In this document: positions 26,629 to 48,162 of the stretch, piece after piece | Layout: each line of letters starts with the position of its first letter | Numbering within the stretch: the stretch's first letter is position 1 | Assembly: GCF_900185725.1 (NCBI RefSeq) | Contig: NZ_FYAU01000005.1 | Span: 1 to 64,000 of the forward strand | DNA from: Stappia sp. TSB10P1A | GTDB taxonomy: Bacteria; Pseudomonadota; Alphaproteobacteria; Rhizobiales; Stappiaceae | DNA: 64,000 nucleotides | Direction: 5' to 3' | Translations under genes and position numbers: made by a program | Notes under the pieces: model-generated | The model's input: the letters and a program-made list of their open reading frames with translations, nothing else | Databases searched by the model: none | What the model was told of the DNA's origin: nothing

Positions 26629-27423
26629 TCAGCCGTTCGACCCTTTTCCACTGACGAGAGCGAGCACGCGCAGCGGGCTGCCCGACCCGTTGAGGATCTT
26701 GAGTGGCGCGGTGATCAGGGTCGCGCCGGTTGCCGGCAACTGATCGAGGTTGCGCAGGCATTGCAAGCCGTATCGACCGGCACCGTGCAGGAAGTGGTGC
26801 GCCGGATGGGGCGGATTGAAATGCGCGGCCTGGCCGGCATCGGTGCCGATGGTCTCGGTGCCGAAGCCAAGGATGCCGCGCTCCTCCACCAGCCATTGCA
26901 TGACCTGCGGATCGGGCCCTGGCGTATGCGCACCATCCGCTCTCAGGTTGGCATAATCTTTCGCGCTGCGCTTGGACCAGTCGGTGCGTAGCAGCACCCA
27001 GCTTCCGCTGGCGACCTGGCCGTGAACCCGCTCCCAGGCCTCCACGGCTGCTCGCGTCAGCAGGAAGTCCGGGTCGGCCGCCGCCTCGCGCGAGCAGTCG
27101 ATGACGCAGGCCGGCGCGATCATGTGCTCCACGGGAAGCGTGTCGACGGCATTGTTTGGCAGGGTCCTGCCCGTGTGCCAGTGGATCGGCGCGTCGAAAT
27201 GGGTCCCGGTGTGCTCGCTCAAGGTGATGTTGTTCCAGTACCATCCCGGCCCGTCCGCGTCGTAGCGGGATATCTGCTGGATGCGCAGGGGAGAGGCCTG
27301 TCCGAACTCGGGCGGCAGCACGATCACCGGAAACTCCGGCGACAGCGTGAAGGTGAGATCGACGAGGCGCAGCGATCCCGCTGCGATGGCGGCCGCAATG
27401 TCGTGTGGCGTGAAATCGGTCAT
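26629..27423 (-). CDS. isatin hydrolase-like cyclase-family hydrolase (copy 1)
   Basis: A 264-residue enzyme of the cyclase/kynurenine-formamidase family. The metal motif HTGTHFDAPIH at residues 71-81 supplies His71, His75, Asp77 and His81. The surroundings (VDLTFTLSPEFPVI, LPPEFGQ, SRYDADGPGWYWNN, GTDAGQ, LKILNGSGSPLRV) closely match the characterised isatin hydrolase type, which opens isatin to isatinate with Mn2+. It is the last gene of a five-gene minus-strand operon, overlapping the DUF35-SDR gene by 4 bp, next to the thiolase-like gene that could make isatin. A second copy lies at 42064. Confidence 0.82.
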   Translation of the reverse strand: MTDFTPHDIAAAIAAGSLRLVDLTFTLSPEFPVIVLPPEFGQASPLRIQQISRYDADGPGWYWNNITLSEHTGTHFDAPIHWHTGRTLPNNAVDTLPVEHMIAPACVIDCSREAAADPDFLLTRAAVEAWERVHGQVASGSWVLLRTDWSKRSAKDYANLRADGAHTPGPDPQVMQWLVEERGILGFGTETIGTDAGQAAHFNPPHPAHHFLHGAGRYGLQCLRNLDQLPATGATLITAPLKILNGSGSPLRVLALVSGKGSNG

Positions 27424-28676
27424 TGTCCTGCCTGTCCGTTGCCCTGACGCGCCAGCTCGTGTTCCAGTGCCTTGGGGTTGGCCTGCAACCTGCGCCGGAC
27501 ATCCTCCGCAACGTCCCCGACGAACACATCCTCGATGCCCCTGTCCAGGGCCGACACGATCGCCTTGGCGAGGGTCTGCGGTGCGACCTTGGGCGGCGGC
27601 ACGGTCTGGAACCATTCGGTGTCGAGCGGCCCCGTGAAGAAGTTGATGACGCGGATTCCGCCGGGTCGCATCTCCGCGCGCAGGCAGTGCGACAACGACA
27701 GGCAGGCGGCTTCCACCGCGCTGAAGGTGCCGTAGGCGGGCCAGTTGGCGAGAGCGTAGACGGAGAACAGGTTTACCCATGCGGCGGCACTGTCGATACC
27801 GTCCGCGCCCCTGCCGCGCATCGCCGGACCGAAGGTCTGCGCCAGATGCACGAGGCCCAGATAGTTGTGCTCGATCTCGCTGCGGATCGTTCCGGTGCCG
27901 CGCCGGTCGAGAAGACCGCCGGGGCGGGCATACTCGGCGGTGTTGACAAGGATGTCGACCTTGCCGCCGATATCGGCGGCGAGATCCCGCACGGATCGTT
28001 CGTCGGTCACGTCAAGCGGGACGATCTCGCAGGATTGCGGCAACGCCTCGCCGTCGAAGGGCTTCCATGGCTCCGCGATGCCGACATGCACCGTCGCTCC
28101 CGCGGCCGCCAGAGCCGCCGCGGTCGCCCGGCCAACCGCGGTGCGTCCGTCCGTCACCAGCGCGCGGCGAAATTTCGGGGAAGCCGTCATCTCCCGCCAT
28201 TGCGGGTCGTCCGCCGCGTCGGGGGGGATGTTGGCCGGCCGTGCGAATGCGGCGGCAAGGCCCGCCTTGTCCAGTTGCAGGGACATCGTCACCCGGTCTC
28301 CTTCCCCGCAACCGGCATGAAGATGCGCCAACACGACGGGGCCGCAATCGAGCTTGACCAGGGCGACGCGCCAGGGCGCGCGTTCCTTGAAATAGACATC
28401 GGCGGGGACGCGCACCGTCGTCTCGGAGACGACGAGACCGCCTGTCGGGGCGTCCTCCAGCGCAAGCTCGACCGACAGGCAGACGGGACAGGCATCGTGG
28501 GCGGGGTAACAGAACGTGCCACAGTCCCGGCAGCGCTGCAGGGCGAAGCGTCCTTCGGCAGCCGCCTTGGTCAGCAGCATCCCGGACCGGCTGCGGATGA
28601 CCGGGGGGAGTGCCTGGCGTCTCGTGCGCTGCAAAGGGGTCCTGCGCGCGGGTTTCTGCAACGGTTCCACCATCAC
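27420..28676 (-). CDS. DUF35 (Zn ribbon + OB fold) fused to a degenerate SDR domain
   Basis: A 418-residue fusion. Residues 49-66 form a rubredoxin-like zinc ribbon (CRDC ... CPVC), followed by an OB fold to about residue 145, the DUF35 unit that partners thiolase-like acyl-CoA lyases. From about residue 170 runs a short-chain dehydrogenase domain (TDGRTAVGRATAAALAAAGA, NLFSVYALANWPAY). The SDR active-site signature YxxxK reads FSAVE (Phe318, Glu322), so both catalytic residues are lost and the domain is probably structural or regulatory. It overlaps both the thiolase-like and isatin hydrolase genes by 4 bp. Likely role: partner subunit of the thiolase-like protein. Confidence 0.8.
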   Translation of the reverse strand: MMVEPLQKPARRTPLQRTRRQALPPVIRSRSGMLLTKAAAEGRFALQRCRDCGTFCYPAHDACPVCLSVELALEDAPTGGLVVSETTVRVPADVYFKERAPWRVALVKLDCGPVVLAHLHAGCGEGDRVTMSLQLDKAGLAAAFARPANIPPDAADDPQWREMTASPKFRRALVTDGRTAVGRATAAALAAAGATVHVGIAEPWKPFDGEALPQSCEIVPLDVTDERSVRDLAADIGGKVDILVNTAEYARPGGLLDRRGTGTIRSEIEHNYLGLVHLAQTFGPAMRGRGADGIDSAAAWVNLFSVYALANWPAYGTFSAVEAACLSLSHCLRAEMRPGGIRVINFFTGPLDTEWFQTVPPPKVAPQTLAKAIVSALDRGIEDVFVGDVAEDVRRRLQANPKALEHELARQGNGQAGQ

Positions 28677-29854
28677 GACTCTCCCGCAAGGATCACCGCC
28701 CCGGAGGAGAGGCCGCGATCGTAGTTTATCATGCCAAAACCGGATGCGAGGCCAACCCGCGCACCCGGCACCTGTGTCGGTCCGGCGGTGCCGAGCACCT
28801 GGCGCACCGCTTCGGTGACCCCGAGATAGGCGCCGGCCGCGCCGGCTTGCCCGGCCGAGAGCTGGCCGCCGGAGGTGTTGTGCGGAAACGTGCCGTCGAT
28901 GGTCAGATCGTGTTGCTGCACGAAGGCGGCGCCCTCCCCCTTCCTGCAGAATCCGAGGTCTTCCAGTTGCATCATCACGATGACCGGATAGTCGTCATAT
29001 GTCTGCACGAAATCCATGCGATCCGGCCCGACGCCGGCCATCGCATAGAGGTCGTCGATGTCGGCGACCCAGCCGCCATGGTTCTGCACCACGTCGTCGA
29101 GGCGGGCATTGTGCCGTTCGATGGAGCCGAGGATGCGCGCGCCCTTTATGCCGGCGGATGCTGCGGTTTCCTCGCGCATGACCAGAAAGGCTTCCGCGCC
29201 GGCACAGGGCATGACGCAGTCGTAGAGATGGATCGGATCGGCAATGGGCCGGGCCGCCATGTACTGCTCCAGGGTCAGCGGCGTCTTCATCAGGGCGTTC
29301 GGGTTGCGCAGGGCATTGGCGCGCTGCGCGACCGCGATGCGCCCGAGATCCTCGCGGCGGACACCGAAGCGGTTCATGTAATGGCGGGCGATCAGCGCGA
29401 AGCTCGCATTGGCCCCGCCGGCGCCATAGGGATAGACGGCGTCCTGCGAGAAGCGAGAGAAATTCTCCAGGGTGCGACGGAACGAGTCCACGTGGTTGGT
29501 ATCGCCGCCGACACAGGCGACCACATCGCAGTCGCGCGCCTGCACCGCGCGGGCCGCTCGGCGCAGCGCCGCGATGGCGCTCGCCCCGCCAAGCGGTATG
29601 TGGTCGAGCCAGCGCACGCTGAGACCGAGATGCTGGGTCAGGCCGATGGCGGTGTCCGGGCCGACGGTGAAGCTCGACAGGCAGAAGCCGTCGAAGTCGC
29701 GCGCGGAAATGCCGGAGGTTTCAGCCAGGGCACGCAGGGCGCGGGCTATCCACCAATGCGCGCTTTCGATCGAATAGCGCTCATAGGGGATCGTCACCGG
29801 CGCGGCGATCACCACTCCGTCATAGGGCGTTCTGGGGGAAGCGGGTTTGGGCAT
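28673..29854 (-). CDS. thiolase-like protein, possible retro-aldolase (Ltp2-like)
   Basis: A 393-residue protein with the non-decarboxylating thiolase fold of the SCP2/lipid-transfer group: CVGGDTNHVDSF, RYGAGG-like YPYGAGGANASFAL, NTSGGQLSAGQAGAAGAYLG near the C-terminus. The nucleophilic Cys of true thiolases is absent (LGGASA at about residue 88), and the C-terminal GHP motif reads GQA. In the same fold, Ltp2-type proteins lack these residues and, with a DUF35 partner, cleave tertiary beta-hydroxyacyl-CoAs by retro-aldol reaction. The DUF35 fusion partner is encoded right after it with a 4-bp overlap. Substrate proposal: dioxindole-3-acetyl-CoA, giving isatin and acetyl-CoA. Confidence 0.7.
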   Translation of the reverse strand: MPKPASPRTPYDGVVIAAPVTIPYERYSIESAHWWIARALRALAETSGISARDFDGFCLSSFTVGPDTAIGLTQHLGLSVRWLDHIPLGGASAIAALRRAARAVQARDCDVVACVGGDTNHVDSFRRTLENFSRFSQDAVYPYGAGGANASFALIARHYMNRFGVRREDLGRIAVAQRANALRNPNALMKTPLTLEQYMAARPIADPIHLYDCVMPCAGAEAFLVMREETAASAGIKGARILGSIERHNARLDDVVQNHGGWVADIDDLYAMAGVGPDRMDFVQTYDDYPVIVMMQLEDLGFCRKGEGAAFVQQHDLTIDGTFPHNTSGGQLSAGQAGAAGAYLGVTEAVRQVLGTAGPTQVPGARVGLASGFGMINYDRGLSSGAVILAGES

Positions 29855-29863
29855 TGCAGCAGG

Positions 29864-30295
29864 TTACCCGTTGGCGATCGTCAGGACGACGTCGATGTTT
29901 CCGCGCGTTGCTTTCGAGAAGGGGCAGCGCTCATGCGCGCCGGCCACCAGCCTTGCCGCGGTGTCATGGCCAACACCCGGCATCGCGACCACGAGTTCGA
30001 CAGCGAACATGTAGCCGCCATCGACGGCGCCGACCCCCACCTTTGCCGTTACGGCCGCATCGGCCGGGACCGCGACCTTGTCGAGCCGTCCGACGAGCTT
30101 GATCGCGCTGAGGAAGCAGGCGGCATAGCCGGCGGCAAAGAGCTGTTCCGGATTGGTGCCGCCGCCGCCTGGTCCGCCGAACTCTACGGGTATGGAGAGG
30201 GAGACATCCAGACGCCCGTCGCTGCTGGCGGCACGACCATCGCGCCCTCCGCTGGCCGTGGCCTCGGTGGCATAAACGATCTTCTCGGGCGTCAT
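29864..30295 (-). CDS. ohr: Ohr-type organic hydroperoxide resistance protein (OsmC family)
   Basis: A 143-residue protein with both redox-active Cys motifs of Ohr: AACFLSA near residue 60 and CPFSKAT near residue 124, about 64 apart. The N-terminal EKIVYATEATASGGRDGRA is typical of Ohr rather than OsmC. It reduces organic and lipid hydroperoxides with thiol help in the cytoplasm. It lies in the operon with the racemase-like and thiolase-like genes (4-bp overlap upstream, 9 bp downstream), which is unusual and may relate to oxidants made by the flavin monooxygenase of the same regulon. Confidence 0.88.
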   Translation of the reverse strand: MTPEKIVYATEATASGGRDGRAASSDGRLDVSLSIPVEFGGPGGGGTNPEQLFAAGYAACFLSAIKLVGRLDKVAVPADAAVTAKVGVGAVDGGYMFAVELVVAMPGVGHDTAARLVAGAHERCPFSKATRGNIDVVLTIANG

Positions 30296-31104
30296 TTCAG
30301 GAAATCCTCTCGAAGGGAACGGGCAGGCGTACCTTGCGCGACAAGTTGGCGGAAGTCGTGCCTGGCGCGGTCGCCGGCAAGGCGGAAGCTCGGTCCCCGG
30401 CTCGGCTCGATGCCGCTGAGCGCCCGGAGCTGCCCCCACATCTCCGCCGATTTGAGGGCCACCGCCGCGCAGTTGAGAACGGGTGCGTGGCCGATCTTGA
30501 AATTGTGTTCTCCCCCGATCAGCAGGCCAGGCAGCACTCCGGCGGGCACGATCACATCGGCGCCGCGCTCCACCATCGTCCGGGCGCAGGCGGAGAACTG
30601 CGCCAGCAGCCGCTCCCTGGCAAGGTCGTCGCCGGCGAAGCAACGGTCGAAATCCTCCGGTCGGCACCCGAGGCCCGCAACGTGCTGGACCCGGCCCGCA
30701 AGGCCGTATCGTTCCGCCTGTTCGAGATGCCAAACCTCGAATGCCGGATCCAGCGTCACCAGCCCCAGGCGCCGGCCGAGCTGCGAGGCGGCCAGGAGCG
30801 TGGCTTCGCCGACCCCGACCACCGGGATCCTCAGGGCCGACCGGAGCTCGTAGAGGCCGGGGTCCTGGAAATGTCCCATGACATAGGCATCGAAGCCGTC
30901 GGCTTCCGCGCCGAGGCCGGCGTCCACGGCCTGTATGGCGCAACGAAACTCCGCCAGCCGGCCGAAATCTCGGTCGGAAGGGGACATGCCGAAGACGTCG
31001 ACCCGCGTGCCGGGCGCCGCGATGTCGTTGAGAAAGGTTCGAAGCGTGTCCAGGTAGGACGCACCGACCGCCTCGTCGACGAAGCTCTGCCAGAAAATGC
31101 GCAT
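30292..31104 (-). CDS. Asp/Glu/hydantoin racemase-superfamily protein lacking both Cys
   Basis: A 270-residue protein with the two-lobe racemase fold; GHFQDPGLYELRSALRIPVVGVGEATLLAA and RLGLVTLDPAFEVW match the superfamily core. The two catalytic Cys positions are not Cys: the first reads MGHFQD (His), and the second lies in VIVPAGVLPG (Gly or Val). It is therefore probably not a racemase; related proteins act as isomerases, decarboxylases or hydrolases. First gene of the five-gene minus-strand operon that ends in isatin hydrolase, with operator site A upstream. Function unknown. Confidence 0.7.
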   Translation of the reverse strand: MRIFWQSFVDEAVGASYLDTLRTFLNDIAAPGTRVDVFGMSPSDRDFGRLAEFRCAIQAVDAGLGAEADGFDAYVMGHFQDPGLYELRSALRIPVVGVGEATLLAASQLGRRLGLVTLDPAFEVWHLEQAERYGLAGRVQHVAGLGCRPEDFDRCFAGDDLARERLLAQFSACARTMVERGADVIVPAGVLPGLLIGGEHNFKIGHAPVLNCAAVALKSAEMWGQLRALSGIEPSRGPSFRLAGDRARHDFRQLVAQGTPARSLREDFLK

Positions 31105-31238: not shown

Positions 31239-31252
31239 TATGCATCAACATA
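31239..31252. promoter_or_regulatory. operator site A, TATGCATCAACATA
   Basis: A member of the TATG-N6-CATR palindrome family found in front of each unit of this regulon. It lies in the region between the racemase-like (minus) and dctP (plus) genes, two bases before a TTGACA (31255-31260). Binding here could control both divergent operons. I infer the two MarR proteins of the window as binders. Confidence 0.65.
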
Positions 31253-31353
31253 GATTGACATATAAATCATATTACGCCTTACTGTCAATGCGCGGCAAGG
31301 GAAAACAGATAGATGCCCGGCCGCGAAGCTCGAGGAACGAGGGGAGCTAGGTG

Positions 31354-32370
31354 ATGAGGAACAGTCGGTTTTCCTGCATGCTGCTGGGAGTGACAGCACT
31401 TGCCGGTGTCTTTGGATCGGGGGCGCTGACAAGCGCGATGGCCGCCGACAAGATCCGGGCCATCGTCGCTCTTCCGCTACCGATTTCAGACAATGTCGAT
31501 TTCTTCGAGTACATCAAGCTCATCAACGAGCGCGGCAAGGGCATCGTCGAGATCGAGGTCGTCGGCGGTCCCGAGGTCATCCCGCAGGACCAGCAGGCGG
31601 ATGCTGTCCGAAGGGGCATCGTCGACATGCGATATGGCCCGGCCACCCACAATCTGGGGGCCATGCCCGAAGCCGATGCTTTCGTCGGCTCGACGATTAC
31701 GGCGGCGGAGGCTCGCGACAATGGCGGCTTCGACGTCATGCGGGATGCGTTCAGGAAGCGACTCGGCGTGGAGTTCCTCGCGCTCCTGAAGAGCGGGGTC
31801 GAGTTCCGCATCTATGTCACCCAGGAGCCGGCGCGAACCGAGGACGGCGGTGTCGACCTTGCCGGCTATCGCCTCCGCTCGATGCCGGTTTACCGCGCCT
31901 TCTTCGAGTCCCTCGGCGCGGTCCCGATCTCCGTGCCGATCGCCGATGTCTATACCGGACTGGAGCGCAACACGTTCGAGGGGCTGGGCGCTGCGGCCAC
32001 CGCCGTTCTCGATTTCTCCTGGGAAAACTACCTCAAGTACCAGATCGAGCCCGGTTTTCTGCAGACCGACCTCGTCGTTCTGATGAACCCCGACAAGTGG
32101 GAGAAGCTGTCTCCGGAAGCCCGGCAGATCATCGAGGAAACGTCGATCGAATACGAAAAGACGTCGAACGAGAACGTGGCGGCGGCCATCACCGACGTCG
32201 ATCGGCGGGCGGCTGAACTCGGCATCCGGAAGGTGACCCTCGAGGGCGAGGCGCGGCAGAAGTTCCTGGATGCCGCATATGGCGCCACATGGGACCGTCT
32301 GAAGGCGTCGGGCTCGGAATTCCACGATGCGCTGCGGGCCACGTATTTCCGGCCAGAGAAGCTCCAATAG
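31354..32370 (+). CDS. TRAP transporter receptor DctP (copy 1)
   Basis: A 338-residue periplasmic receptor with a signal peptide (LGVTALAGVFGSGALTSAMA). The DctP fold is clear: IVEIEVVGGPEVIPQDQQAD, GYRLRSMPVYRAFFESLGA with the ligand-binding Arg, and MNPDKWEKLSPEARQIIEE. The ATG at 31354 has GGGGAG 7 bases upstream. It is the first gene of an operon with a second receptor, DctQ, DctM and a CoA ligase, so the ligand is a carboxylic acid that is then thioesterified, plausibly indole-3-acetate or a derivative. Confidence 0.9.
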   Translation: MRNSRFSCMLLGVTALAGVFGSGALTSAMAADKIRAIVALPLPISDNVDFFEYIKLINERGKGIVEIEVVGGPEVIPQDQQADAVRRGIVDMRYGPATHNLGAMPEADAFVGSTITAAEARDNGGFDVMRDAFRKRLGVEFLALLKSGVEFRIYVTQEPARTEDGGVDLAGYRLRSMPVYRAFFESLGAVPISVPIADVYTGLERNTFEGLGAAATAVLDFSWENYLKYQIEPGFLQTDLVVLMNPDKWEKLSPEARQIIEETSIEYEKTSNENVAAAITDVDRRAAELGIRKVTLEGEARQKFLDAAYGATWDRLKASGSEFHDALRATYFRPEKLQ

Positions 32371-32466
32371 CCAGACCGGGTGACGCCCGCCACAGGCGGG
32401 CCGGCCATAGGGGGCGGCGGCCATAGGGCCGGCCGCATCACTCAGGTGCAAGCAGGAGGAACTCGA

Positions 32467-33495
32467 ATGAAGACGTGTCTTGAAGCCATTCTCTCCCATC
32501 TCGGCTCAGGGTTCGGCAAGGCGCTTGCCGTCGTGCCTGCCACGATGATGGTCCTTTCCGGCGTGAATGCCCATGCCGAGCAGCAATTGCGAGCGATCGC
32601 GGTATTCCCGCCCTCGGAAAACACGACCGAGGCCTACCGGGAGTTCATCGATCTGGTGAACGAACGGGGCAAGGGCATCGTCCAGATCGAATTCGTCGGA
32701 GGTCCGGAAGTCATTCCGGCAATGCAGCAGTTCGATGCCGTACGCCGCGGCGCGGTCGACATGACCTATGCCCCTGCGAGCTACAGCATGGGCACCGTCC
32801 CGGAAGCCGGAGCGCTGGTCGGCGCCACGGTGTCGCCGCAGACCGCCCGTGACAACGGCGGCTTCGAGCTCCTGCAGGGCATCTTCCAGGAGCGGCTGGG
32901 CGTGGAGCTCCTCGGCAGGCTGGCCCCGGCAGCCAACTTCCACCTGTTCCTTGTCGATGAGCCGAAGCGCACCGACGACGGCGGCGTCGACTTGACCGGA
33001 CTGCGGATCCGCTCCGGGCCGCTCTTCAACGCCTTCTTCGAGGATCGGGGCGCGGTCCCGATCGTCGTTCCCGTGCCGGACATCTACACCGGTCTGGAGC
33101 GCCGCACATTCGATGCTCTGGGATACTCGATGCCGGCCGTGAAAGGCTTCTCCTGGGAGCGGTTCCTCAAATACCGGATCGATCCCGGCTTCTTCCAGAC
33201 CGATCTCGTGATCGTCATGAATCCGACCAAGTGGGCAGGTCTCAGCGAGGAGGCGCGGCAACTCCTCAGCGAGGTCGCTCTCGAATACGAGCAGAAGTCC
33301 CATCGCGATGTCCAGGCCCTTTCCGACCGGATCAAGCACGAGTTGGAAACCGCAGACGGGGTCAAGACCATCACCCTGGAAGGCGAGGGGGCGCGGCGGT
33401 ATCTCGACTCGGCCTACGGCTCGATTTGGGCGCAGTTGGAAGCCTCGGGAAGCAAATATTACGAAGCGCTCCGCGCCAAGTTGTACGACCGCTGA
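32467..33495 (+). CDS. TRAP transporter receptor DctP (copy 2)
   Basis: A 342-residue paralogue of the gene just upstream, similar over its whole length (for example ERGKGIVQIEFVGGPEVIPA against ERGKGIVEIEVVGGPEVIPQ). Signal peptide to about residue 37 (MMVLSGVNAHA). The ligand loop reads LRIRSGPLFNAFFEDRGAVP, differing from copy 1 near the binding Arg, which suggests a related but different ligand. A good Shine-Dalgarno (AGGAGGA) lies 6 bases before the ATG. Having two receptors for one permease pair broadens the range of substrates. Confidence 0.88.
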   Translation: MKTCLEAILSHLGSGFGKALAVVPATMMVLSGVNAHAEQQLRAIAVFPPSENTTEAYREFIDLVNERGKGIVQIEFVGGPEVIPAMQQFDAVRRGAVDMTYAPASYSMGTVPEAGALVGATVSPQTARDNGGFELLQGIFQERLGVELLGRLAPAANFHLFLVDEPKRTDDGGVDLTGLRIRSGPLFNAFFEDRGAVPIVVPVPDIYTGLERRTFDALGYSMPAVKGFSWERFLKYRIDPGFFQTDLVIVMNPTKWAGLSEEARQLLSEVALEYEQKSHRDVQALSDRIKHELETADGVKTITLEGEGARRYLDSAYGSIWAQLEASGSKYYEALRAKLYDR

Positions 33496-33584
33496 TGAGC
33501 CGGCGCGGCCGGGGGACGCGCCCCGGCCAGCGCCCGTGTCACCCTAGCTTCCATATCCTTTCCGGGTTTCTCAACGAGGACCAG

Positions 33585-34082: not shown

Positions 34083-34083
34083 C

Positions 34084-40144: not shown

Positions 40145-40513
40145 ATGACCGACCAGAAACCCATCCGCGTGCTGTTCTGCATTGCCGTCCAGCAGACCTT
40201 TTTCGAGTTGCCGTTCTCCGAGATCGGTCCTGTCTGGAAGGCGTTCGGCTCGATGATGAAGGGGATCTCCGAACTGCCCGGGGTCACGATCCTCGGCATG
40301 CTCGACGATGACGAAACCATGGTCGGCACGTCGCCGGCCGGCTTCCCCTGGACCGCCTATATCATGGCCGACGTGCCGGACCGGGAGACCGTGCGACAGG
40401 CCTGCAACCTGTTCCGCACGACCCCGGTCGGCGACACCGACTATCGGCTCTGGAAATATTGTCGTGTCGAGGCCCGGATGGGCCGGGCCCTCGAAGTGCC
40501 CGCCAATCTGTGA
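40145..40513 (+). CDS. iacB: IacB-like small protein of unknown function
   Basis: A 122-residue protein without a known enzyme motif. The sequence IRVLFCIAVQQTFFELP, GMLDDDETMVGTSPAGFPW and YRLWKYCRVEARMGRALEVP matches what I recall of IacB, the small protein encoded right after iacA in indoleacetate clusters, thought to aid the pathway in an undefined way. Start is the ATG at 40145, 14 bp after iacA, preceded by a GGAG. The fold may be a dimeric ferredoxin-like barrel, but that is a guess. Confidence 0.65.
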   Translation: MTDQKPIRVLFCIAVQQTFFELPFSEIGPVWKAFGSMMKGISELPGVTILGMLDDDETMVGTSPAGFPWTAYIMADVPDRETVRQACNLFRTTPVGDTDYRLWKYCRVEARMGRALEVPANL

Positions 40514-41379: not shown

Positions 41380-41889
41380 ATGGAAGCGGATGCCGATACC
41401 TTCCGACAGGGCATGAGCTGCCTCGGGGCGGCCGTCAACCTGATCACCTCCGATGGGCCCGAAGGGCGCCATGGCATGACGGCATCGGCTGTCTGTTCGA
41501 TCACGGACAGCCCTCCGACGCTGCTCGTCTGCGTCAACCAGAAGAACCGCTCGCACGACGTTTTCAACGGCAACGGCAACTTGTGTGTGAACGTGCTCGC
41601 CAGCCGCCACATCGAACTGTCGAATGCCTTTGCCGGACGTACCGATCAGGACCGGTTCGCAACAGGAGCGTGGTCCACGCTGGCAACCGGCGCGCCGGTG
41701 CTGGAAGATGCCGTGGTCGCCTTCGACTGCAGGATCGTCGAACGGCGGGCCATCGGCAGCCATTCGGTGTTCTACGCCAGGGTGGTGGGAATGCTGATCT
41801 CGTCGGCGCCGGCCGAGACACTGATCTGGTTCGACCGCAAGTATCATTCCCTGACTGCGGAAGAGCCGGCTGCGCGGAAACCCGTGTAG
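41380..41889 (+). CDS. flavin reductase domain protein (FMN-binding split barrel)
   Basis: A 169-residue protein of the HpaC/IacG flavin-reductase family: HGMTASAVCSITDSPPTLLV contains the flavin-binding loop, FNGNGNLCVNVL and FADRFATGAWS-like QDRFATGAWST follow, and a conserved His lies near RKYHSL. It would supply reduced FAD or FMN to the IacA-like monooxygenase of the same operon using NADH. It ends the operon; the second isatin hydrolase has its own promoter further on. Confidence 0.85.
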   Translation: MEADADTFRQGMSCLGAAVNLITSDGPEGRHGMTASAVCSITDSPPTLLVCVNQKNRSHDVFNGNGNLCVNVLASRHIELSNAFAGRTDQDRFATGAWSTLATGAPVLEDAVVAFDCRIVERRAIGSHSVFYARVVGMLISSAPAETLIWFDRKYHSLTAEEPAARKPV

Positions 41890-41930
41890 GCGCCTCGCAG
41901 GCCGGCAAAGCCGACGCTCTCGGGCGTTGG

Positions 41931-41971
41931 TTGACACTGGAAGTGTATTCATAAGACTATGTATTGCCATG
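41931..41971 (+). promoter_or_regulatory. promoter and operator site C, TATGTATTGCCATG
   Basis: TTGACA at 41931-41936, then the palindrome TATGTATTGCCATG at 41958-41971, placed with the same distance from the -35 box as site B. A clear -10 box is not visible. It lies about 90 bases before the second isatin hydrolase gene. Confidence 0.6.
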
Positions 41972-42063
41972 GAAACCATCGGGATCTGCCTTGGGGGCGG
42001 ATCCGGTCCTGCACGGGCCGACCGATGATGGGGTGTCATCTGGCACTGTGGAGGACCGATCGC

Positions 42064-42858
42064 ATGAGCGCAGCTTCGGGTGAGATTTTGCTGTCCCTCG
42101 TCGGGGCGATCGCCGGCGGGTCGATCAAGGTGGTGGACCTGACGAACACGCTCAGTCCGGACTTCCCCGTCATCGCGCTGCCACCGGAATTCGGCCAGTG
42201 CCAGCCGTTCCGTATGGAAACCGTGTCGCGCTATGACGAGAATGGGCCGGCCTGGTACTGGAACAATTTCTCGATGAACGAGCACACGGGCACCCACTTC
42301 GATGCGCCGGCGCATTGGATCTCGGGGAAGGGCGTGGCGAACGGTACCGTCGATACGGTCGCGCCGGAAAACTTCGTCGCCCCCGCGGTCGTCATCGACA
42401 TTTCCCGTCAGGCGGCGGCCGATGCCGATTTCGTGCTGACGCGCGCCTTCCTGGAGGATTGGGAGCGCACACATGGTCCCATTCCCGCTCGCCACTGGAT
42501 CCTGCTGCGCACGGATTGGCACAAGCGGGTGGGGACGCCCGACTATCTGAATCTCAAGGACGACGGCGCGCATTCTCCCGGGCCGGACGCGGAGGCGGTG
42601 ACGTTTCTGGTGAAGGAGCGCGACTGCATCGGTCTCGGCGTCGAAACCGTGGGAACGGATGCCGGCCAGGGGTTCGGGTTCGAACCGCCCCTGCCGGCGC
42701 ATACGATCCTGCACGGCAACGGCCGTTTCGGCCTGCAATGCCTGCGCAATCTCGACCAGCTCCCGACATTCGGGGCGGTGATCGTCGCCGCCCCGCTCAA
42801 GATCGAAGGAGGGTCGGGGAGTCCGCTCAGGGTGATCGCGCTGACCACCGGGCGGTGA
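42064..42858 (+). CDS. isatin hydrolase-like cyclase-family hydrolase (copy 2)
   Basis: A 264-residue paralogue of the gene at 26629. The metal motif HTGTHFDAPAH lies at residues 74-84 (His74, His78, Asp80, His84). It is closer to characterised isatin hydrolase than copy 1 in the N-terminal VVDLTNTLSPDFPVIALPPE, ISRYDE-like VSRYDENGPAWYWNN and GTDAGQGF. Reaction: isatin plus water to isatinate. I chose the ATG at 42064 because GAGG lies before it and the family begins here. It has its own promoter and operator and is convergent with the MarR genes. Confidence 0.87.
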   Translation: MSAASGEILLSLVGAIAGGSIKVVDLTNTLSPDFPVIALPPEFGQCQPFRMETVSRYDENGPAWYWNNFSMNEHTGTHFDAPAHWISGKGVANGTVDTVAPENFVAPAVVIDISRQAAADADFVLTRAFLEDWERTHGPIPARHWILLRTDWHKRVGTPDYLNLKDDGAHSPGPDAEAVTFLVKERDCIGLGVETVGTDAGQGFGFEPPLPAHTILHGNGRFGLQCLRNLDQLPTFGAVIVAAPLKIEGGSGSPLRVIALTTGR

Positions 42859-42909: not shown

Positions 42910-43410
42910 TCAGGACGCGGCTTCGCCGAGATTGCGGATCATCGTCTTCAGCGTGTTGACGCAGGTTTTCAGGTCTTTCTCCGGAATCCCGGCGATCAGG
43001 CGTTGATGGTTGCAAACCATGAGCGGCCAAAGCGTGTGGAGAAGGCTCCGCCCCTTGTCGGTCAGGACAATTTCGCGGCGGCGAAGGTCCTTCTCCGAAA
43101 TCTGCCGCTGAACCAGCCCGTCCGCGACCATCAAATCGATTGTCCTGCTGGCATTCGACTGCTCGATAACGGCATAGGCGGCAATCTCGTTGACGGTCAG
43201 TGTCGGGTGCATGTTGAGAACGGAAAGGGTCCGCAGCACGGTACTGTTAATCCCGTGCTCGTTGAGATCCCGGTTCTGATCGAGATTCCAACGGTTCGTC
43301 ACCAGGTTCAGCAAGTACGGAATGTAATTGCGCAACTCCTCTACAGTGCTGAAAGGCTCCGATGTGCTCGCGCCCGATATGTCTTTTCTGGCGCGTCCGG
43401 CCTTAGTCAT
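42910..43410 (-). CDS. MarR-family transcriptional regulator 1
   Basis: A 166-residue regulator. The winged helix-turn-helix covers about residues 55-125: LTVNEIAAYAVIEQSNASRTIDLMVADGLVQRQ, then the wing EKDLRRREIVLTDKGRSLL. It is translated from an ATG that overlaps the stop of MarR 2 by 8 bases, so both are produced from one message, together with the thioesterase and IorAB genes upstream. MarR proteins control most auxin-degradation clusters (IacR). Probable role: repressor binding the TATG-N6-CATR palindromes, released by indoleacetate or an intermediate. Confidence 0.86.
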   Translation of the reverse strand: MTKAGRARKDISGASTSEPFSTVEELRNYIPYLLNLVTNRWNLDQNRDLNEHGINSTVLRTLSVLNMHPTLTVNEIAAYAVIEQSNASRTIDLMVADGLVQRQISEKDLRRREIVLTDKGRSLLHTLWPLMVCNHQRLIAGIPEKDLKTCVNTLKTMIRNLGEAAS

Positions 43411-43918
43411 TTCGGCGTCCCTGTATGCCTGAAGACAGCAATCTGAGTGTCGTAAGCGCCTTTTCCAACTCTGGCAACGGCACCTCGGCGAAACAGCGCG
43501 CCAGCGTCTCGGCGTGAAGGGCATTGGCCCTGTCGAAAAGCTCTTTGCCTTTCGGGGTGAAGTGCACGATGAAGGACCGTCGGTCTTCCTGCGACATGGT
43601 CTTGGTGATGAGCCCGTCCGCAAGCAGGCGCCGGACCAGCCCGGACACGTTGCCGCTCGTGACCTTGAGATTGGCTGAGATCTGCCCGAGGCTGATGCCG
43701 GCAGGATAGCGCTCGATCTGCGCCAGAAACTCGAATTTGGCGACGGAAATGCCGAATTGAGCGCTCAAGGCGCCATTCAATTTCGAGAAAATCTCGCTTT
43801 CCAGCGAAAGCACCGACAACCAGATCCGTGTTTCAACTCTGCTCCTGTCCAGCCCCTTGCCCTCGCTGATAGTCTTGCCCACTGCGACCCTCGCATCTGT
43901 CGGGAGGTTCCGGTTCAA
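43403..43918 (-). CDS. MarR-family transcriptional regulator 2
   Basis: A 171-residue regulator from the same family but clearly different from MarR 1. The helix-turn-helix reads ISLGQISANLKVTSGNVSGLVRRLLADGLI, with the wing QEDRRSFIVHFTPKGKELF. It lies directly upstream of MarR 1 with an 8-bp overlap; its start is 49 bp after the thioesterase stop. Palindrome site G lies in this gap, so it may regulate its own expression. The two proteins could form heterodimers or respond to different ligands. Confidence 0.86.
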   Translation of the reverse strand: MNRNLPTDARVAVGKTISEGKGLDRSRVETRIWLSVLSLESEIFSKLNGALSAQFGISVAKFEFLAQIERYPAGISLGQISANLKVTSGNVSGLVRRLLADGLITKTMSQEDRRSFIVHFTPKGKELFDRANALHAETLARCFAEVPLPELEKALTTLRLLSSGIQGRRND

Positions 43919-43967: not shown

Positions 43968-44447
43968 TCATGATTTTGCATAAATAAGCAAGGCGGCACG
44001 CAGGTCTTCCGGGATCGCGGTCGGGCGATGGTTGTCAAGGCTCGTCGTGACAACCGTAAAACGTCCTCTCAGGGCCTCTTTCTCTCCGTTGAAAGCATGA
44101 AGCAACAGGTTGAAAGAGGATGTCCCCACCCGCTCGACGTCGAGGGCCACGTCGAGCGTCGTGCCCATCCGGCAGGGCGCGAAGAAATCCGCATGCGCAT
44201 TCACATATCCAAGACCGACGCGCCGCGCACCGATGATTTCGTAATAGTCGATGCCGAGCGCATGCTCATACCACTTCTCGATGACGACATTGAAGATGTC
44301 GAAGAAATTCGGCGTGTAGACGATGCCTGCCGGGTCGCAGTGTCCGAACCGGATTTTCGTTGCGGTCGACCAAAGTCCGTTTTTGAGATCTTTGAGAAGA
44401 AGCGGGATCGGCCGGGAGGCGACCGGAGTTTCGAGGGGCTTGTTCAT
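43968..44447 (-). CDS. 4-hydroxybenzoyl-CoA-type thioesterase
   Basis: A 159-residue hotdog protein with FGHCDPAGIVYTPNFFDIFN, the hallmark of the Pseudomonas-type 4HBT family; the Asp in CDPAG is the catalytic residue. The usual substrates are aromatic acyl-CoAs such as hydroxybenzoyl-CoA. It overlaps the iorB stop by 4 bp (ATGA) and precedes the MarR genes. In the proposed pathway it would hydrolyse anthraniloyl-CoA, made by IorAB from isatinate, to anthranilate. That use is inference. Confidence 0.83.
   Translation of the reverse strand: MNKPLETPVASRPIPLLLKDLKNGLWSTATKIRFGHCDPAGIVYTPNFFDIFNVVIEKWYEHALGIDYYEIIGARRVGLGYVNAHADFFAPCRMGTTLDVALDVERVGTSSFNLLLHAFNGEKEALRGRFTVVTTSLDNHRPTAIPEDLRAALLIYAKS
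43969..43982. promoter_or_regulatory. operator site G, CATGATTTTGCATA
   Basis: On the minus strand this reads TATGCAAAATCATG, matching TATG-N6-CATR. It overlaps the last codons of the thioesterase gene and lies about 50 bases before the start of MarR 2, a position suited to autoregulation. Because it lies partly in coding sequence, it is the weakest of the seven sites. Confidence 0.4.
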
Positions 44448-46003
44448 AGGAATGACTTTATGGTTGCTATCGTGCCGTCCAGTTGCTTCTGGGACGCGTC
44501 CCGGATCGCGGCTTCTCGCAGGCGTCGCGCCCAGTCTGCAGCGTCCGCGCGTCCCTCCAGGAGGGCGATCGTGGCCACGACCTTGTCGAATTTCGACAGG
44601 CCGCGGGTATGGGTGTCGGAGTAGCCCTTGACGAGGCGCCGGCATTGGAGAACTTCCACGCCGAGCTGGTAATTGTTCGCCAGTGCGCGGGTGGCGGCTG
44701 CGAGCCAGGCATCCCGGTGCGCCGTCTCGACCTCATGGCGCAACGACCGGCGCCGGAGCCAGCGCAGGCTGCTCACGAGGTAGAGCATCAGGAACCAGCG
44801 CAAGGTGTAGGTCCTGACCCGTCGCCCCTTGCTGATCCGCCGGTCGAGCCAGGCGAAGAGGCGCGGTCGCGCTTCGATCCAGCGACCGAGCCGGGCGGGC
44901 AGGAGGCCGTTCACTTCCTCCATGCGCGGATGCATGAACTCGGTCGTCTGGAGCACCTGGCCCTCCCGCAGGCCCATCTCCCGTTCGATGCGCGCTCGCC
45001 GTTGCGCGCGTGTCTTCAGGTCCGCCACGCGAATGACGTCGTCATAGGCCATGGCATTTGCCAGATACTTGGCCGCGGTCACCGTGAAGAGATGTCCCTT
45101 GCCGGCCCCCCCCGCCTCCGCGTCGGCGGCGTGCAGCCGATCGAGCAGGTCGAGATACTCGCGCCCATAGTCGAGGTCCTGATAGTCGACGACCTTGCGC
45201 AGGCCAGCTTCGGCCATCGCATGCGCGGCGTCCGGCAGGGTCTCGCGCAGGCGGGTCAGCAAGGGGAGGAAACGCGGGTCGACGGTGGCGGCCTCCGCAG
45301 GCGGCCTCTCGGGTTGCTCACCCGTCTGCGCAGGCGCCGCGCCCGAGTTGGCGCGGGTATATGCTGCCTCGAAGGTGCGGATGCTCGCTTCCACGCCTCG
45401 GCCGCCTTCGCGGATGACGGTCAGGTAATCGTCCTGGCCGAAGGGCAGGATATCGGCACCGGCAAGCGCACCGAACATCGCCGCCGAGATGACGCTGCCG
45501 TTCCTGACGGCCAGGGCGTCCATGTCGAACACGATCTCGCGCCGTGCCGTCACGCCGATCGCTTGCGAGACAGCGGACTTGTCGGCAATCCCCTCGCCGG
45601 GGGCCATTTTCTCGGTGATGGCCAGCGAGCGATGGTTGGAGGCGATCAGCGTGGTCCGGTCGGGCGTGACGATTCCTCGCAGGATCGACCGGCCCGCTTC
45701 CATGAACTCCGACGCGAGCACCACATCGACATCCCCGGGCGTCGGCATCTGGGCAAGGATGGGCCTGCGTCCGTCGAGCGGCGGCATCATCTCGACATAG
45801 TAGATCGTGGCCCCGGTCCGCTGCGCCACACCCGGTACGGATGTCGACTGGGCAACCCAGCCCTGGTTCTCGGCCAGTTTCACAATCCAGTCTGTGAGCA
45901 CGCCGCCGCCCTGCCCGCCCATCGCCACGATGGCGATGGAGATCGGACGCTCCGTCGCCGGGCCGGCCGCCGGAAGCGTCAGCTTGACTGTGTCGTCTTT
46001 CAT
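44444..46003 (-). CDS. iorB: indolepyruvate/2-oxoacid:ferredoxin oxidoreductase, beta subunit (long form)
   Basis: A 519-residue protein. The first 200 or so residues are the pyruvate ferredoxin oxidoreductase gamma-type domain (AIVAMGGQGGGVLTDWIVKLAE, VPGVAQRTGATIYYVEM), as in IorB. A long C-terminal extension of about 300 residues, rich in Arg (GRRVRTYTLRWFLMLYLVSS), contains the DUF6537-like part seen in proteobacterial fused forms. With IorA it oxidatively decarboxylates a 2-oxoacid to acyl-CoA and reduces ferredoxin. The stop overlaps the thioesterase start, and the start overlaps the iorA stop by 4 bp. Substrate in this context: indolepyruvate or isatinate (2-aminophenylglyoxylate). Confidence 0.88.
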   Translation of the reverse strand: MKDDTVKLTLPAAGPATERPISIAIVAMGGQGGGVLTDWIVKLAENQGWVAQSTSVPGVAQRTGATIYYVEMMPPLDGRRPILAQMPTPGDVDVVLASEFMEAGRSILRGIVTPDRTTLIASNHRSLAITEKMAPGEGIADKSAVSQAIGVTARREIVFDMDALAVRNGSVISAAMFGALAGADILPFGQDDYLTVIREGGRGVEASIRTFEAAYTRANSGAAPAQTGEQPERPPAEAATVDPRFLPLLTRLRETLPDAAHAMAEAGLRKVVDYQDLDYGREYLDLLDRLHAADAEAGGAGKGHLFTVTAAKYLANAMAYDDVIRVADLKTRAQRRARIEREMGLREGQVLQTTEFMHPRMEEVNGLLPARLGRWIEARPRLFAWLDRRISKGRRVRTYTLRWFLMLYLVSSLRWLRRRSLRHEVETAHRDAWLAAATRALANNYQLGVEVLQCRRLVKGYSDTHTRGLSKFDKVVATIALLEGRADAADWARRLREAAIRDASQKQLDGTIATIKSFL

Positions 46004-48162
46004 GTGCTGGCCGCGCTGAACTGGATACGGCGCATGGCGCGCCTCCTTTGCAGGGCCCCGATGACTGCCATGGTCAGGCTCGCCTTGAACTTGTCCCAGC
46101 GGGTCGGGTTGTGGATCACGTCGGCGCGGAAGAAGGAGGGACAGAGCACGGCAGCCTCCGCCACCTCCCCGCAATTGCCACAGGCGACGCAGGAATTGTC
46201 GATCGAGGCGACGGGGTCGTCGCGCAGCGGGTCGTCCAACTGTTTGACCGACAGCGATGGGCAGCCCGAGAGCCGTATGCAAGCATGGTCTCCCGTGCAC
46301 ACATCCTCATCGACACCGAAACGCTCCTTGACCACGCGCTGGCCGCCCTTGATGGCCTTGGCGATCTGCGGCTTCACCCGGCGCTGCTTGTTGAGCATGC
46401 ATTCCGACGAGGCGACGATGATCTTCGGACCTTCCTCCTTGGTGGTGAGCGCCTCCTTCAGCGTGTCGCGCATCTTGGTGACGTCATAGGTCCGGTCGAT
46501 CTGGCGCACCCATTTGGCGCCGATGCCGTGCAGCGCCTCGACAATGGAGTTGTTGGTGCTCCGATTTGCGTTTTGGGCGCGCGAGGAGAGAATGTCCTGG
46601 CCGCCGGTCGCGGAGGAATAGTAGTTGTCGACGATGACGAAAACGCCGTCGTGCTTGTTGAAGACGGCGTTGCCGATGCCGCTGGTCAGCCCGTTATGCC
46701 AGAAGCCGCCGTCGCCCATTATCGCGATCGAGCGCTTGTCGGCCTTGACGTTGAAGGCCGAGGTCGAGGCCGGGCCAAGGCCGAATCCCATCGTGGTCGC
46801 GCCGAGGTCGAAGGGTGGCAGGATCGAGAACAGATGGCAGCCGATGTCGGCCGAGACATGGTGCGTTCCCAGTTCCTCTTCCACCAGCTTCATGGAGGCG
46901 AAGATCGGTCGCTCGGGACAGCCGGTGCACAAGCCGGGCGGGCGCGGTGGTACGACCGTCTGCAGGCGCTGCACTTCCGGCAGGGCCAGCACGGGCTTCG
47001 GGTCGGGCAGGGGCGGGCGGTTGCCGAGAAGATGCGGATCGTTGGTTGCCAAGAACGTCTCGATCCCCTGCATCAGCACCTGGGCGGTGTAGTCGCCGCC
47101 CATCGGCAGGACATCCTTGCCGGAAACCCGCGTGTTGATGTCGCGTCGGCGCAAAACGGTGTTGATGGCCTGCTCTAGGTATTCGGGCTGGCCTTCCTCG
47201 ATCATCAGCACCGCATCTTTATCGCGGCAGAAATCGGCAACCTCCGTGTCGATGACCGGATAGGTGACGTTCATGACGTAGAGCGGAACCTTGGTGTTTC
47301 CATAGGCGTCCGAAAGTCCGAGATACTGAAGTGCGCGGATGACGCTGTTGTACATCCCGCCCTGTATCAGGATGCCGATCTTCCCTTCGCTCGGGCCCAT
47401 CCACTCGTTCAGCTTGTTGTCGCGCACGAAGTCGATGGCGGCGGGCAGGCGCTTGTGGATCTTCTCCTGCTCGTGCTCGTAGGCCGCCGGCGGCAGAACG
47501 ATGCGGCTGAGATCCCGCTTGGGATTGTTGAGGGCGTCTTTCAGCGTGAAGACCGGCTTGACGTTGTCCTTGGCGACGAAACTGCCATGCATGTGGCAGG
47601 TTCGCACCCGCACCTCCAGCATCACCGGCGTGTTGGAGGCTTCCGAGAGCTGGAAGCCCTTCTCGATCAGGTCGACGATACAGGTATGGTCGGGACGCGG
47701 GTCGAGCAGCCACATCTGCGACTTCATGGCGAAGGCGTGCGTACGCTCCTGCATGATCGACGATCCCTCGCCGTAGTCCTCGCCGATGATGATCATCGCG
47801 CCGCCGGTGACCCCGCCGGACGACAGATTGGCCAGCGCGTCGGAGGCGACATTGGTGCCGACGGTCGACTTCCATGCCACGGCGCCCCGCAAGGGATACA
47901 TCACCGAGGCGGACAGCATCGCGGCGGCCGTCGCCTCGTTGGCGGAACTCTGGAAGATGACGTCGAGCTCGTCGAGCACGTCCTTGGCATCGGCCAGCAC
48001 GTCCATCAGGTGCGAAATGGGCGAGCCCTGGTAGCCGCCGACATAGGACACGCCGGACTGCAGCAGGGCCTTGGTGATGGCAAGGATTCCTTCGCCGCTG
48101 AATATTTCCCCACCCGACAGGCGCAGATCCTCAACCTCGCGAGCAAATGAGCGTTCAGCCAT
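46000..48162 (-). CDS. iorA: indolepyruvate/2-oxoacid:ferredoxin oxidoreductase, alpha subunit
   Basis: A 720-residue protein. Parts in order: the pyrimidine-binding domain (GVSYVGGYQGSPISHLMDVL, SSANEATAAAML), the IorA middle domain, the TPP-binding domain (GLCTGCPERPIFASM, MGDGGFWHNGLTSGIGNA and the DNYYSSATGGQ loop), and a C-terminal 2[4Fe-4S] ferredoxin region with CTGDHACIRLSGCP and CVACGNC. It forms the catalytic subunit with IorB. It is the first gene of a five-gene operon (iorA, iorB, thioesterase, marR2, marR1) with promoter and operator site D upstream. The class prefers aryl pyruvates or aryl glyoxylates. Confidence 0.92.
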   Translation of the reverse strand: MAERSFAREVEDLRLSGGEIFSGEGILAITKALLQSGVSYVGGYQGSPISHLMDVLADAKDVLDELDVIFQSSANEATAAAMLSASVMYPLRGAVAWKSTVGTNVASDALANLSSGGVTGGAMIIIGEDYGEGSSIMQERTHAFAMKSQMWLLDPRPDHTCIVDLIEKGFQLSEASNTPVMLEVRVRTCHMHGSFVAKDNVKPVFTLKDALNNPKRDLSRIVLPPAAYEHEQEKIHKRLPAAIDFVRDNKLNEWMGPSEGKIGILIQGGMYNSVIRALQYLGLSDAYGNTKVPLYVMNVTYPVIDTEVADFCRDKDAVLMIEEGQPEYLEQAINTVLRRRDINTRVSGKDVLPMGGDYTAQVLMQGIETFLATNDPHLLGNRPPLPDPKPVLALPEVQRLQTVVPPRPPGLCTGCPERPIFASMKLVEEELGTHHVSADIGCHLFSILPPFDLGATTMGFGLGPASTSAFNVKADKRSIAIMGDGGFWHNGLTSGIGNAVFNKHDGVFVIVDNYYSSATGGQDILSSRAQNANRSTNNSIVEALHGIGAKWVRQIDRTYDVTKMRDTLKEALTTKEEGPKIIVASSECMLNKQRRVKPQIAKAIKGGQRVVKERFGVDEDVCTGDHACIRLSGCPSLSVKQLDDPLRDDPVASIDNSCVACGNCGEVAEAAVLCPSFFRADVIHNPTRWDKFKASLTMAVIGALQRRRAMRRIQFSAAST

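Follow-up and report, generated by a model that had tools for sequence, protein, structure and literature searches.

A candidate Rieske-free locus for indoleacetate degradation in Stappia, combining iac-type and iad-type genes with a predicted retro-aldolase

Introduction

The bacterial gene clusters closest to the locus described here are the iac locus of Pseudomonas putida 1290 and other bacteria and the iad locus of Variovorax, Achromobacter, and Bradyrhizobium, both of which serve the degradation of the auxin indoleacetate (IAA). IacA and IacE together turn IAA into dioxindole-3-acetate (DOAA) in E. coli (PMC7225977), and the iac conversion of DOAA to catechol requires iacC, with iacDF involved; Variovorax requires IadDE (PMC9613470). 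The iad route from IAA through isatin to anthranilate is already known from Bradyrhizobium and Variovorax, and a CoA ligase and thiolase step has been proposed for it, with a chemistry different from the one considered below (PMC9613470, PMC12633357). Here we analyze a 64,000-nucleotide window of Stappia sp. TSB10P1A (contig NZ_FYAU01000005.1, positions 1 to 64,000), which lies on one contig of a 5.13-Mb draft genome of 64 contigs at 99.66% completeness. A first-pass annotation, made from the letters alone, had chained the genes between 26629 and 48162 into a CoA-dependent path from IAA via isatin to anthranilate. That reading is coherent and mostly correct, but the route itself is the published one; what seems to be new is a hybrid of iac and iad genes that would work without a Rieske oxygenase, together with the reading of IadG and IadH as a retro-aldolase and its partner.

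Variovorax mutants in iadF, iadG, iadH, or iadI lose anthranilate production and accumulate C10H9NO4, that is, DOAA (PMC12633357). This 2025 preprint, the most detailed account of the pathway, takes IadG to be a ketothiolase and IadH an alcohol dehydrogenase from their annotated functions, so that the carbon-carbon cleavage removing the acetyl group is assigned from annotation; an aldolase proposal makes this gap testable. A survey of such loci has profiled them through adjacent iacCD homologs, with “hybrid” clusters defined in the methods and iadA/iadB given as exclusive markers of iad loci (PMC9613470), and Sphingomonas genomes with iac and fragmentary iad clusters have been reported (PMC11630574).

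A mosaic of iac and iad genes

We consider it probable that the locus encodes a hybrid, Rieske-free IAA pathway in which IacA, IacG, and IacE, then IadF, a retro-aldol pair of IadG and IadH, and an isatin hydrolase would act in turn under the control of an IadR-like regulator. By homology and gene order, the locus appears to be a mosaic of an iac front (IacA, IacB, IacE, IacG) and an iad back (IadF, IadG, IadH, IadI, with IorAB corresponding to IadAB). Two of its operons hold the genes on which this reading turns:

26629..27423, minus strand: isatin hydrolase 1, IadI-type cyclase family (PF04199; PDB 5nnb/5nna, E ~3e-112; GLQC and HxGTHxD)
27420..28676, minus strand: IadH-type DUF35 protein (zinc ribbon and OB) fused to a degenerate short-chain dehydrogenase (SDR) domain (PF12172, PF01796, PF00106)
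28673..29854, minus strand: IadG-type thiolase-fold protein, proposed Sal/Ltp2-like retro-aldolase (PDB 9myr, 4u4e, 7yvy, 6ok1; Y286-D-D-Y; Foldseek)
37240..38898, plus strand: acyl-CoA ligase 2, IadF ortholog and first gene of the hybrid operon (61% to Sulfitobacter IadF, 54% to Roseibium IadF)
38982..40130, plus strand: IacA, flavin-dependent IAA monooxygenase (59% to Martelella IacA of the iac operon, 69% to Neorhizobium)
40145..40513, plus strand: IacB (59% to Martelella IacB; no Pfam match)
40579..41340, plus strand: IacE, an SDR with TGxxxGxG and YxxxK intact (69% to Martelella IacE)
41380..41889, plus strand: IacG flavin reductase (RutF/HpaC-type matches below cut-offs; 60% to Martelella IacG)
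41959..42858, plus strand: isatin hydrolase 2, closest to an IadI (5nna, E 1.6e-109; 75% to Sulfitobacter IadI; GLQC)

Gene content was read from Pfam and NCBIfam matches and overlaps directly from the DNA letters; the starts of IacE, of the OsmC gene, and of the first MarR gene are those chosen in this analysis. The reference operons were the iac operons of Martelella AD-3 and Gemmobacter (annotated) and of Shinella (matches only) and the iad operon of a Roseibium aggregatum plasmid, and the Iac and Iad names of genes in other genomes were assigned here from family and gene order. The middle operon runs from acyl-CoA ligase 2 through IacA, IacB, IacE, and IacG to isatin hydrolase 2, and the left operon contains IadG, IadH, and isatin hydrolase 1 together with racemase and OsmC genes. 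The genes named in the first-pass annotation are all present in the order it gave, and its 4-bp overlaps of isatin hydrolase with DUF35-SDR (27420-27423) and of the thioesterase with iorB (44444-44447) are in the sequence, as is one between iorB and iorA (46000-46003). It had overlooked IacB and a second isatin hydrolase and had not recognized the SDR as IacE or ligase 2 as the IadF ortholog (54-61% identity to IadF, against 33-34% for ligase 1). Its proposal of CoA activation has support from homology. The entry it proposed through IacA and a flavin reductase likewise stands by homology, but IacE is needed too (PMC7225977). An open reading frame at 41337-41954 was rejected as a gene; it has no Pfam match, and the flavin reductase lies in another frame.

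Measured against an iad locus, the IadF-G-H-I set and IorAB are here and the IadDE Rieske pair is missing; measured against an iac locus, IacA, IacE, and IacG are here and the IacCD Rieske pair is missing. A search of the Stappia genome for PF00848 (Ring_hydroxyl_A), the family of Rieske alpha subunits, gave no match; among 14 named controls the search was positive in 4. Roseibium IadD as a query at E 1e-30 was also without a match in Stappia, and in two other sets of genomes it was matched in 12 of 20 and in 32 of 38. Both iadCDE and iacCD are thus missing, and within the window there was no match to IadC or IadE or to IacC, IacD, IacF, or IacH (IacI had no reference in that search). Because both Ring_hydroxyl_A and IadD are missing from the genome, neither published route could run alone here, and the two halves would work only jointly. 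In the open-access literature, which leaves subscription papers mostly outside, neither a Rieske-free iac/iad operon nor a Sal/Ltp2-type aldolase in auxin degradation was found in the texts available. At E 1e-30 the DUF35-SDR protein was matched in 18 of 87 genomes of the family, Stappia TSB10P1A included, and in this one alone among the 14 genomes of the genus, which suggests that the locus was gained by transfer.

IadG and IadH as a candidate retro-aldolase pair

The best PDB sequence match of IadG is the aldolase Sal (9myr, E 1.4e-49, or 5.7e-63 as a profile), followed by a putative thiolase of Sphaerobacter (4u4e) and then, in varying order, by Ltp2 (6ok1) and a Pyrococcus thiolase (7yvy). 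Catalysis by Sal depends on Tyr302 and Cys304 of a YDCY motif, with a Gly replacing the nucleophilic thiolase Cys, and catalysis by Ltp2 on Tyr294 of YDHF and on Tyr344 (PMC12329534). The IadG of Stappia also aligns a Gly with the nucleophilic Cys, and across 124 IadG sequences (the window's and 123 homologs from fetched loci) none has a Cys in the nucleophile region, while a YDDY motif that aligns with YDCY and YDHF and both Gln of GGQLSxGQ are kept in every one. An AlphaFold model built on a 47-sequence alignment (mean predicted local distance difference test score 87, predicted template-modeling score 0.90) replaced one from a 9-row alignment that had averaged 43 on the first of these scores, and its top Foldseek matches were Sal-DUF35 (E 2.8e-37, template-modeling score 0.87) and Ltp2-DUF35 (5.1e-31). 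Other thiolase-fold proteins score close behind, so the fold alone is indecisive.

IadH combines an N-terminal DUF35 part (PF12172 and PF01796) with a C-terminal SDR-like domain (PF00106). The four zinc-ribbon Cys residues are kept in the window protein and overall in 119 of 120 IadH homologs, the remaining one being gapped. In the SDR half, the window protein has lost both the Tyr/Lys pair and the full Gly motif, and neither the Tyr+Lys pair nor a complete three-Gly motif occurs in any of the 120; as a control, Y...K was found in 36 of 37 IacE/IadJ-type matches, under a looser test that accepted the motif anywhere within the match. The fusion is also not constant. A Sulfitobacter plasmid (10722-11129 of its fetched stretch) carries, besides an iad operon, a second thiolase-like gene adjoining a DUF35 protein without SDR, and in another genome (G288) an unfused DUF35 protein is followed by an IadJ-type SDR. 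We count these two loci, where DUF35 sits beside the thiolase without being fused to an SDR, for the aldolase reading. Homology, motifs, and predicted fold agree with the first-pass proposal of an Ltp2-like pair formed by a thiolase that has lost its Cys and a DUF35 partner. IadG and IadH look like a Sal/Ltp2-type retro-aldolase and its DUF35 partner rather than a ketothiolase and an alcohol dehydrogenase, and we regard this correction of function as well supported.

The HxGTHxD metal site and the GLQC/GLAS signature, which serve as criteria for isatin hydrolase (PMC6117287), are found in both window copies and overall in 118 of 118 and 115 of 118 sequences, in agreement with the assignment of the first-pass annotation. 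For homologs of this enzyme the activity has been demonstrated in print.

Proposed pathway

DOAA-CoA carries a hydroxyl on its beta carbon and has no beta-keto group, so thiolysis of this compound is unexpected and retro-aldol cleavage to isatin and acetyl-CoA is what one would expect. In the scheme that we favor, IacA with reduced flavin from IacG and with IacE would convert IAA to DOAA, and IadF, perhaps joined by ligase 1, would form the CoA ester, a tertiary beta-hydroxyacyl-CoA. IadG together with the DUF35 domain of IadH would then release acetyl-CoA and isatin. Tyr286 of IadG would deprotonate the hydroxyl on C3, and the SDR half of IadH would not act as a dehydrogenase. Isatin hydrolase would open isatin to isatinate, which would become anthranilate or anthraniloyl-CoA, perhaps by way of IorAB and the 4HBT thioesterase. 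For Stappia, we infer the retro-aldol cleavage and its CoA-ester substrate, the final step of the pathway, and the regulation.

Several observations weigh against this scheme. IadG has Asp288 where Sal has Cys304 and Ltp2 its His, and no Tyr aligns with Tyr344 of Ltp2; the Sal variants C304A, C304S, and C304H have no detectable activity, and no Asp variant was found in the available text (PMC12329534). If IadG is an aldolase, this difference from both enzymes would make it a third active-site type. The decay of the SDR half of IadH is only partial, since its Tyr is kept in 73 and its Lys in 5 of the 120 homologs. The Variovorax iadI mutant accumulates C8H7NO2, which its authors attribute to a reductive removal of the side chain (PMC12633357); this compound is two hydrogens richer than isatin, so a retro-aldol step would need some other enzyme that reduces isatin. 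Finally, IacA and IadD occur together in 2 of 58 aldolase-bearing genomes, in both of which IacA has a stop codon.

Related loci and genomes

Counts below refer to 117 aldolase loci, namely those with a match of at least 50% identity among 127 fetched stretches of 4-33 kb; because most are from Bradyrhizobium, the stretches are unequal, and some genomes apparently occur twice, the counts are incomplete and not independent of one another. In Bosea lupini, Chelatococcus asaccharovorans, and the Rhizobiales metagenome-assembled genome (MAG) 65-9, iacABEG lies ~21-29 kb from the aldolase gene (IacA at 78-81%). Bosea TND4EK4 has iacABEG on a 58-kb contig of its own, and its IacA is interrupted by a single stop codon. 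The most compact hybrid that we saw, and a good model strain, is Neorhizobium SOG26, where IacB, IacA, IacE, and IacG face ligase, isatin hydrolase, DUF35-SDR, and thiolase-like genes within 8 kb (15403-23313 of its stretch). No IacC, IacD, IacF, or IacH match was found in the fetched stretches of Bosea lupini, Chelatococcus, MAG 65-9, and Neorhizobium SOG26, and no IadD in the genomes of the first three (the Neorhizobium genome was outside that search). We count this recurrence, in loci that share the lower module, for the hybrid reading.

In the aldolase tree, the window falls in a clade (support 0.964) with Bradyrhizobium loci and other IacA-linked loci. On this placement, we rejected a left operon without relation to iad. 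The IacA-linked members are scattered inside this one clade (those from Shinella and Martelella were tagged as linked with IacA on another replicon or contig), from which we infer that the front-end swap either took place repeatedly or was frequently reversed. At the genome level, IacA was present in 5 of 17 aldolase-bearing genomes without a close IadD against 2 of 41 with one (58 genomes; Fisher p 0.019), and in the first 20 genomes alone, hand-picked from 80 named loci to span genera, p was 0.008; since the genomes are related, these values are only a guide. Three genomes with an IadD match of only 38-42% were placed among those lacking the gene, two with a match of 45-48% among those having it, and 4 of the 17 genomes without a close IadD (G173, G200, G303, G469) carry only a distant aldolase homolog of 40-47%. 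Strict mutual exclusion of IacA and IadD had been hoped for and was not found.

IacA homologs with one in-frame stop codon were seen in three genomes (G030:C29:148589-149737, G055:C61:178895-180043, and G835:C14:54749-55918), two of which also carry IadD. In the genomes behind loci L020, L087, L088, and L095, the lower module is present and no IacA and no close IadD were found; their DOAA may be taken up or made by another oxygenase. A cytochrome P450 with a fused 2Fe-2S reductase part lies beside an iad locus and a hybrid locus (L106:17964-20282 and L163:7851-10058).

Operator and regulators

The locus carries copies of an operator-like palindrome, two MarR genes, and further genes next to it:

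31239..31252, plus strand: operator site TATGCATCAACATA, between the racemase operon and the TRAP operon
37211..37224, plus strand: operator site TATGCTAACTCATA, upstream of acyl-CoA ligase 2
48185..48198, both strands: operator site TATGCAGCAGCATA, upstream of iorA
48332..48345, minus strand: operator site upstream of the aldehyde dehydrogenase
42910..43410, minus strand: IadR-like MarR regulator (best PDB match 7kym, E 1.8e-47)
43403..43918, minus strand: second MarR regulator
48407..49921, plus strand: aldehyde dehydrogenase (PF00171; 74% to an aldehyde dehydrogenase ~5 kb from the Gemmobacter iac operon)
31351..35403, plus strand: TRAP transporter (two DctP, DctQ, DctM)
35475..37109, plus strand: acyl-CoA ligase 1, PRK06155 family (PF00501; NF004808 above cut-off; 33% to IadF)
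29864..30295, minus strand: OsmC-like protein (PF02566)
30292..31104, minus strand: Asp/Glu/hydantoin racemase-family protein (PF01177)

The pattern TATGCN5CATA has five matches at four sites in the window (31239, 37211, 48185, and 48332, the site at 48185 being matched on both strands) against 0.03 expected from 100 dinucleotide shuffles. The single operator shared by three operons that the first-pass annotation described is borne out, but it had missed the copy that precedes the aldehyde dehydrogenase and a class III aminotransferase (48407-51335). The pattern recurs in 14 of 165 fetched loci, also at iad operons of other genera: immediately before iadC in Sulfitobacter, at the beginning of the iadC frame in Phyllobacterium, and immediately before iorA in Shinella. 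None was found in the Bosea, Chelatococcus, and Bradyrhizobium loci, so the operator is not universal. The PDB entry 7kym is one of those deposited with PMC9613470, and by elimination it should be the MarR regulator IadR of B. japonicum. IAA binding has been demonstrated for homologous IadR proteins and would by extension be expected of the Stappia protein, which probably controls the whole locus through these sites.

The aldehyde dehydrogenase and the aminotransferase could possibly lead from tryptamine or indoleacetaldehyde to IAA, the former being a possible indoleacetaldehyde dehydrogenase. Further downstream (51410-53604) are octopine-dehydrogenase-like and 3-hydroxyacyl-CoA dehydrogenase genes, which are near the aldolase in 6 and 17 of the 117 loci. 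The OsmC-like and racemase genes (29864-31104) travel with the aldolase and fit no scheme; the view that they are chance neighbors was rejected, as they are present in 60 and 80 of the 117 loci.

The last steps and the role of IorAB

The right operon holds the genes from which the last steps were read:

43968..44447, minus strand: 4HBT-family thioesterase (PF13279)
44444..46003, minus strand: IorB-like (IadB) protein with DUF6537 (PF01558, PF20169; NF006179 above cut-off)
46000..48162, minus strand: IorA-like (IadA) thiamine pyrophosphate subunit with C-terminal ferredoxin-like cysteines (TIGR03336 at 279.8 bits against a cut-off of 650.9)

The first-pass annotation had IorAB turn isatinate into anthraniloyl-CoA and the thioesterase release anthranilate. 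Its genes are there, but this is the weakest step of the pathway, and the release by the thioesterase is weak as well. In Variovorax the nine-gene segment iadC-K2, which by its name and number excludes iadA/iadB, restores anthranilate, and neither gene name occurs in the main text of the preprint (PMC12633357); IadAB, the counterpart of IorAB, thus seems not to be required for anthranilate there.

If IorAB and the 4HBT protein were instead devoted to the supply of IAA, converting indolepyruvate to indoleacetyl-CoA and then to IAA, anthranilate would be made from isatinate by an unlinked enzyme. We put this only a little short of an even chance. It agrees with the annotation of IorAB, with the shared operator upstream of iorA, and with the Variovorax result, including the observation of C7H7NO, by formula possibly 2-aminobenzaldehyde (PMC12633357), and genes of IAA supply are plausible at this locus because the aldehyde dehydrogenase, so similar to one linked to an iac operon, has an operator copy of its own. 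Against it, IorA falls far below the cut-off of the equivalog model for the alpha subunit of canonical indolepyruvate oxidoreductase; IorA accompanies the aldolase in 17 of the 117 loci, and iadA/iadB are treated as exclusive markers of iad loci (PMC9613470). Isatinate, moreover, is itself an aryl 2-oxoacid. IorB was present in 16 of the 117 loci, and a PDB search with IorA gave no match at E 0.001.

Other genes fit an exit of the pathway as anthranilate or anthraniloyl-CoA and offer the best support for the last step first proposed. A homolog of the salicylyl-CoA 5-hydroxylase/oxidoreductase family, which we take to include 2-aminobenzoyl-CoA monooxygenase/reductase, is present in 16 of the 117 aldolase loci, and a bifunctional homolog above cut-off on another Stappia contig (L107:8800-11244) is a candidate for the ring attack on anthraniloyl-CoA. 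Bosea lupini, Chelatococcus, and MAG 65-9 have in their hybrid loci a gentisate-dioxygenase-like cupin (below the model cut-off) and a fumarylacetoacetate-hydrolase-like gene, neither of which has a match in the Stappia window.

Alternative readings of the aldolase operon

A second alternative leaves only the middle operon to IAA and assigns the left operon to a different 3-hydroxyoxindole acid. Racemase and OsmC genes without a role in the IAA scheme would suit it, as would the Sulfitobacter plasmid, whose canonical iad operon is accompanied by a second thiolase-like/DUF35 pair of the window's clade, and the 4 of the first 20 named genomes that have a lower module with neither IacA nor close IadD. 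We nonetheless think it unlikely: the thiolase-like profile (at E 1e-100) and the DUF35-SDR protein (at 1e-30) each have a single match in the Stappia genome, the Neorhizobium aldolase of the same clade adjoins IacA, IacE, and IacG with no other aldolase match in a 33-kb stretch, and all three named Bradyrhizobium genomes tested have IadD together with an aldolase of the window's clade.

Less probable still is that IadG acts as a genuine ketothiolase and IadH as an alcohol dehydrogenase and that, with IadF, they take off the acetyl side chain by a reductive route to C8H7NO2, given that DOAA-CoA has no beta-keto group, that the nucleophile Cys (0/124) and the SDR pair and Gly motif (0/120) are missing throughout, and that the Variovorax authors, whose proposal this is and whose DOAA-accumulating, anthranilate-negative mutants and iadI-mutant product speak for it, fell back on annotated function (PMC12633357).

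Comparison with described systems

If the hybrid pathway operates as proposed, two recognized auxin pathways share DOAA as the point at which they can be exchanged, and such loci would not serve as starting points in a survey that, like that of PMC9613470, is seeded on neighboring iacCD (Rieske) genes. The Sal/Ltp2 aldolase mechanism would extend beyond steroids, its setting in PMC12329534, and a testable aldolase would matter also for Variovorax and Bradyrhizobium, which protect roots against excess auxin. A bolder generalization, rather doubtful as it stands, is that all iad-type degraders including Variovorax use a DUF35-assisted IadG-IadH retro-aldolase in which Asp replaces the Cys of Sal and the SDR is dead, that IacABEG and IadCDEJ are exchangeable fronts, and that isatinate leaves as anthraniloyl-CoA wherever IorAB is present; anthraniloyl-CoA would then enter CoA-bound aerobic ring degradation directly.

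With the iad locus, the Stappia locus shares IadF, IadG, IadH, and IadI orthologs, IorAB, and the IadR-like MarR regulator. It differs in having no IadD in the genome and no IadC or IadE in the window, in the placement of IacA, IacB, IacE, and IacG between iadF and an iadI copy, and in IacE occupying the place of IadJ in the operon (IadJ was not separately excluded). With the iac locus it has IacA, IacB, IacE, and IacG in common, in the order A-B-E-G, and differs in the absence of IacC, IacD, IacF, and IacH from the window and of a Rieske alpha subunit from the genome. Isatin hydrolase A of Labrenzia (5nna/5nnb) and Ralstonia (5nmp) provides the best PDB matches for both window copies and has the same motifs; here there are two copies, with a mutual identity of 61%. 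The predicted aldolase, finally, resembles Sal-Shy(DUF35) and Ltp2-ChsH2(DUF35) in its thiolase fold, its DUF35 partner, the catalytic Tyr of a YDxx motif, and the Gly at the lost nucleophile, and Sal in the glutamines of GGQLSxGQ, whereas its third motif residue is Asp (Cys in Sal, His in Ltp2), its partner carries a degenerate SDR rather than a MaoC domain, and its proposed substrate is an oxindole rather than a steroid.

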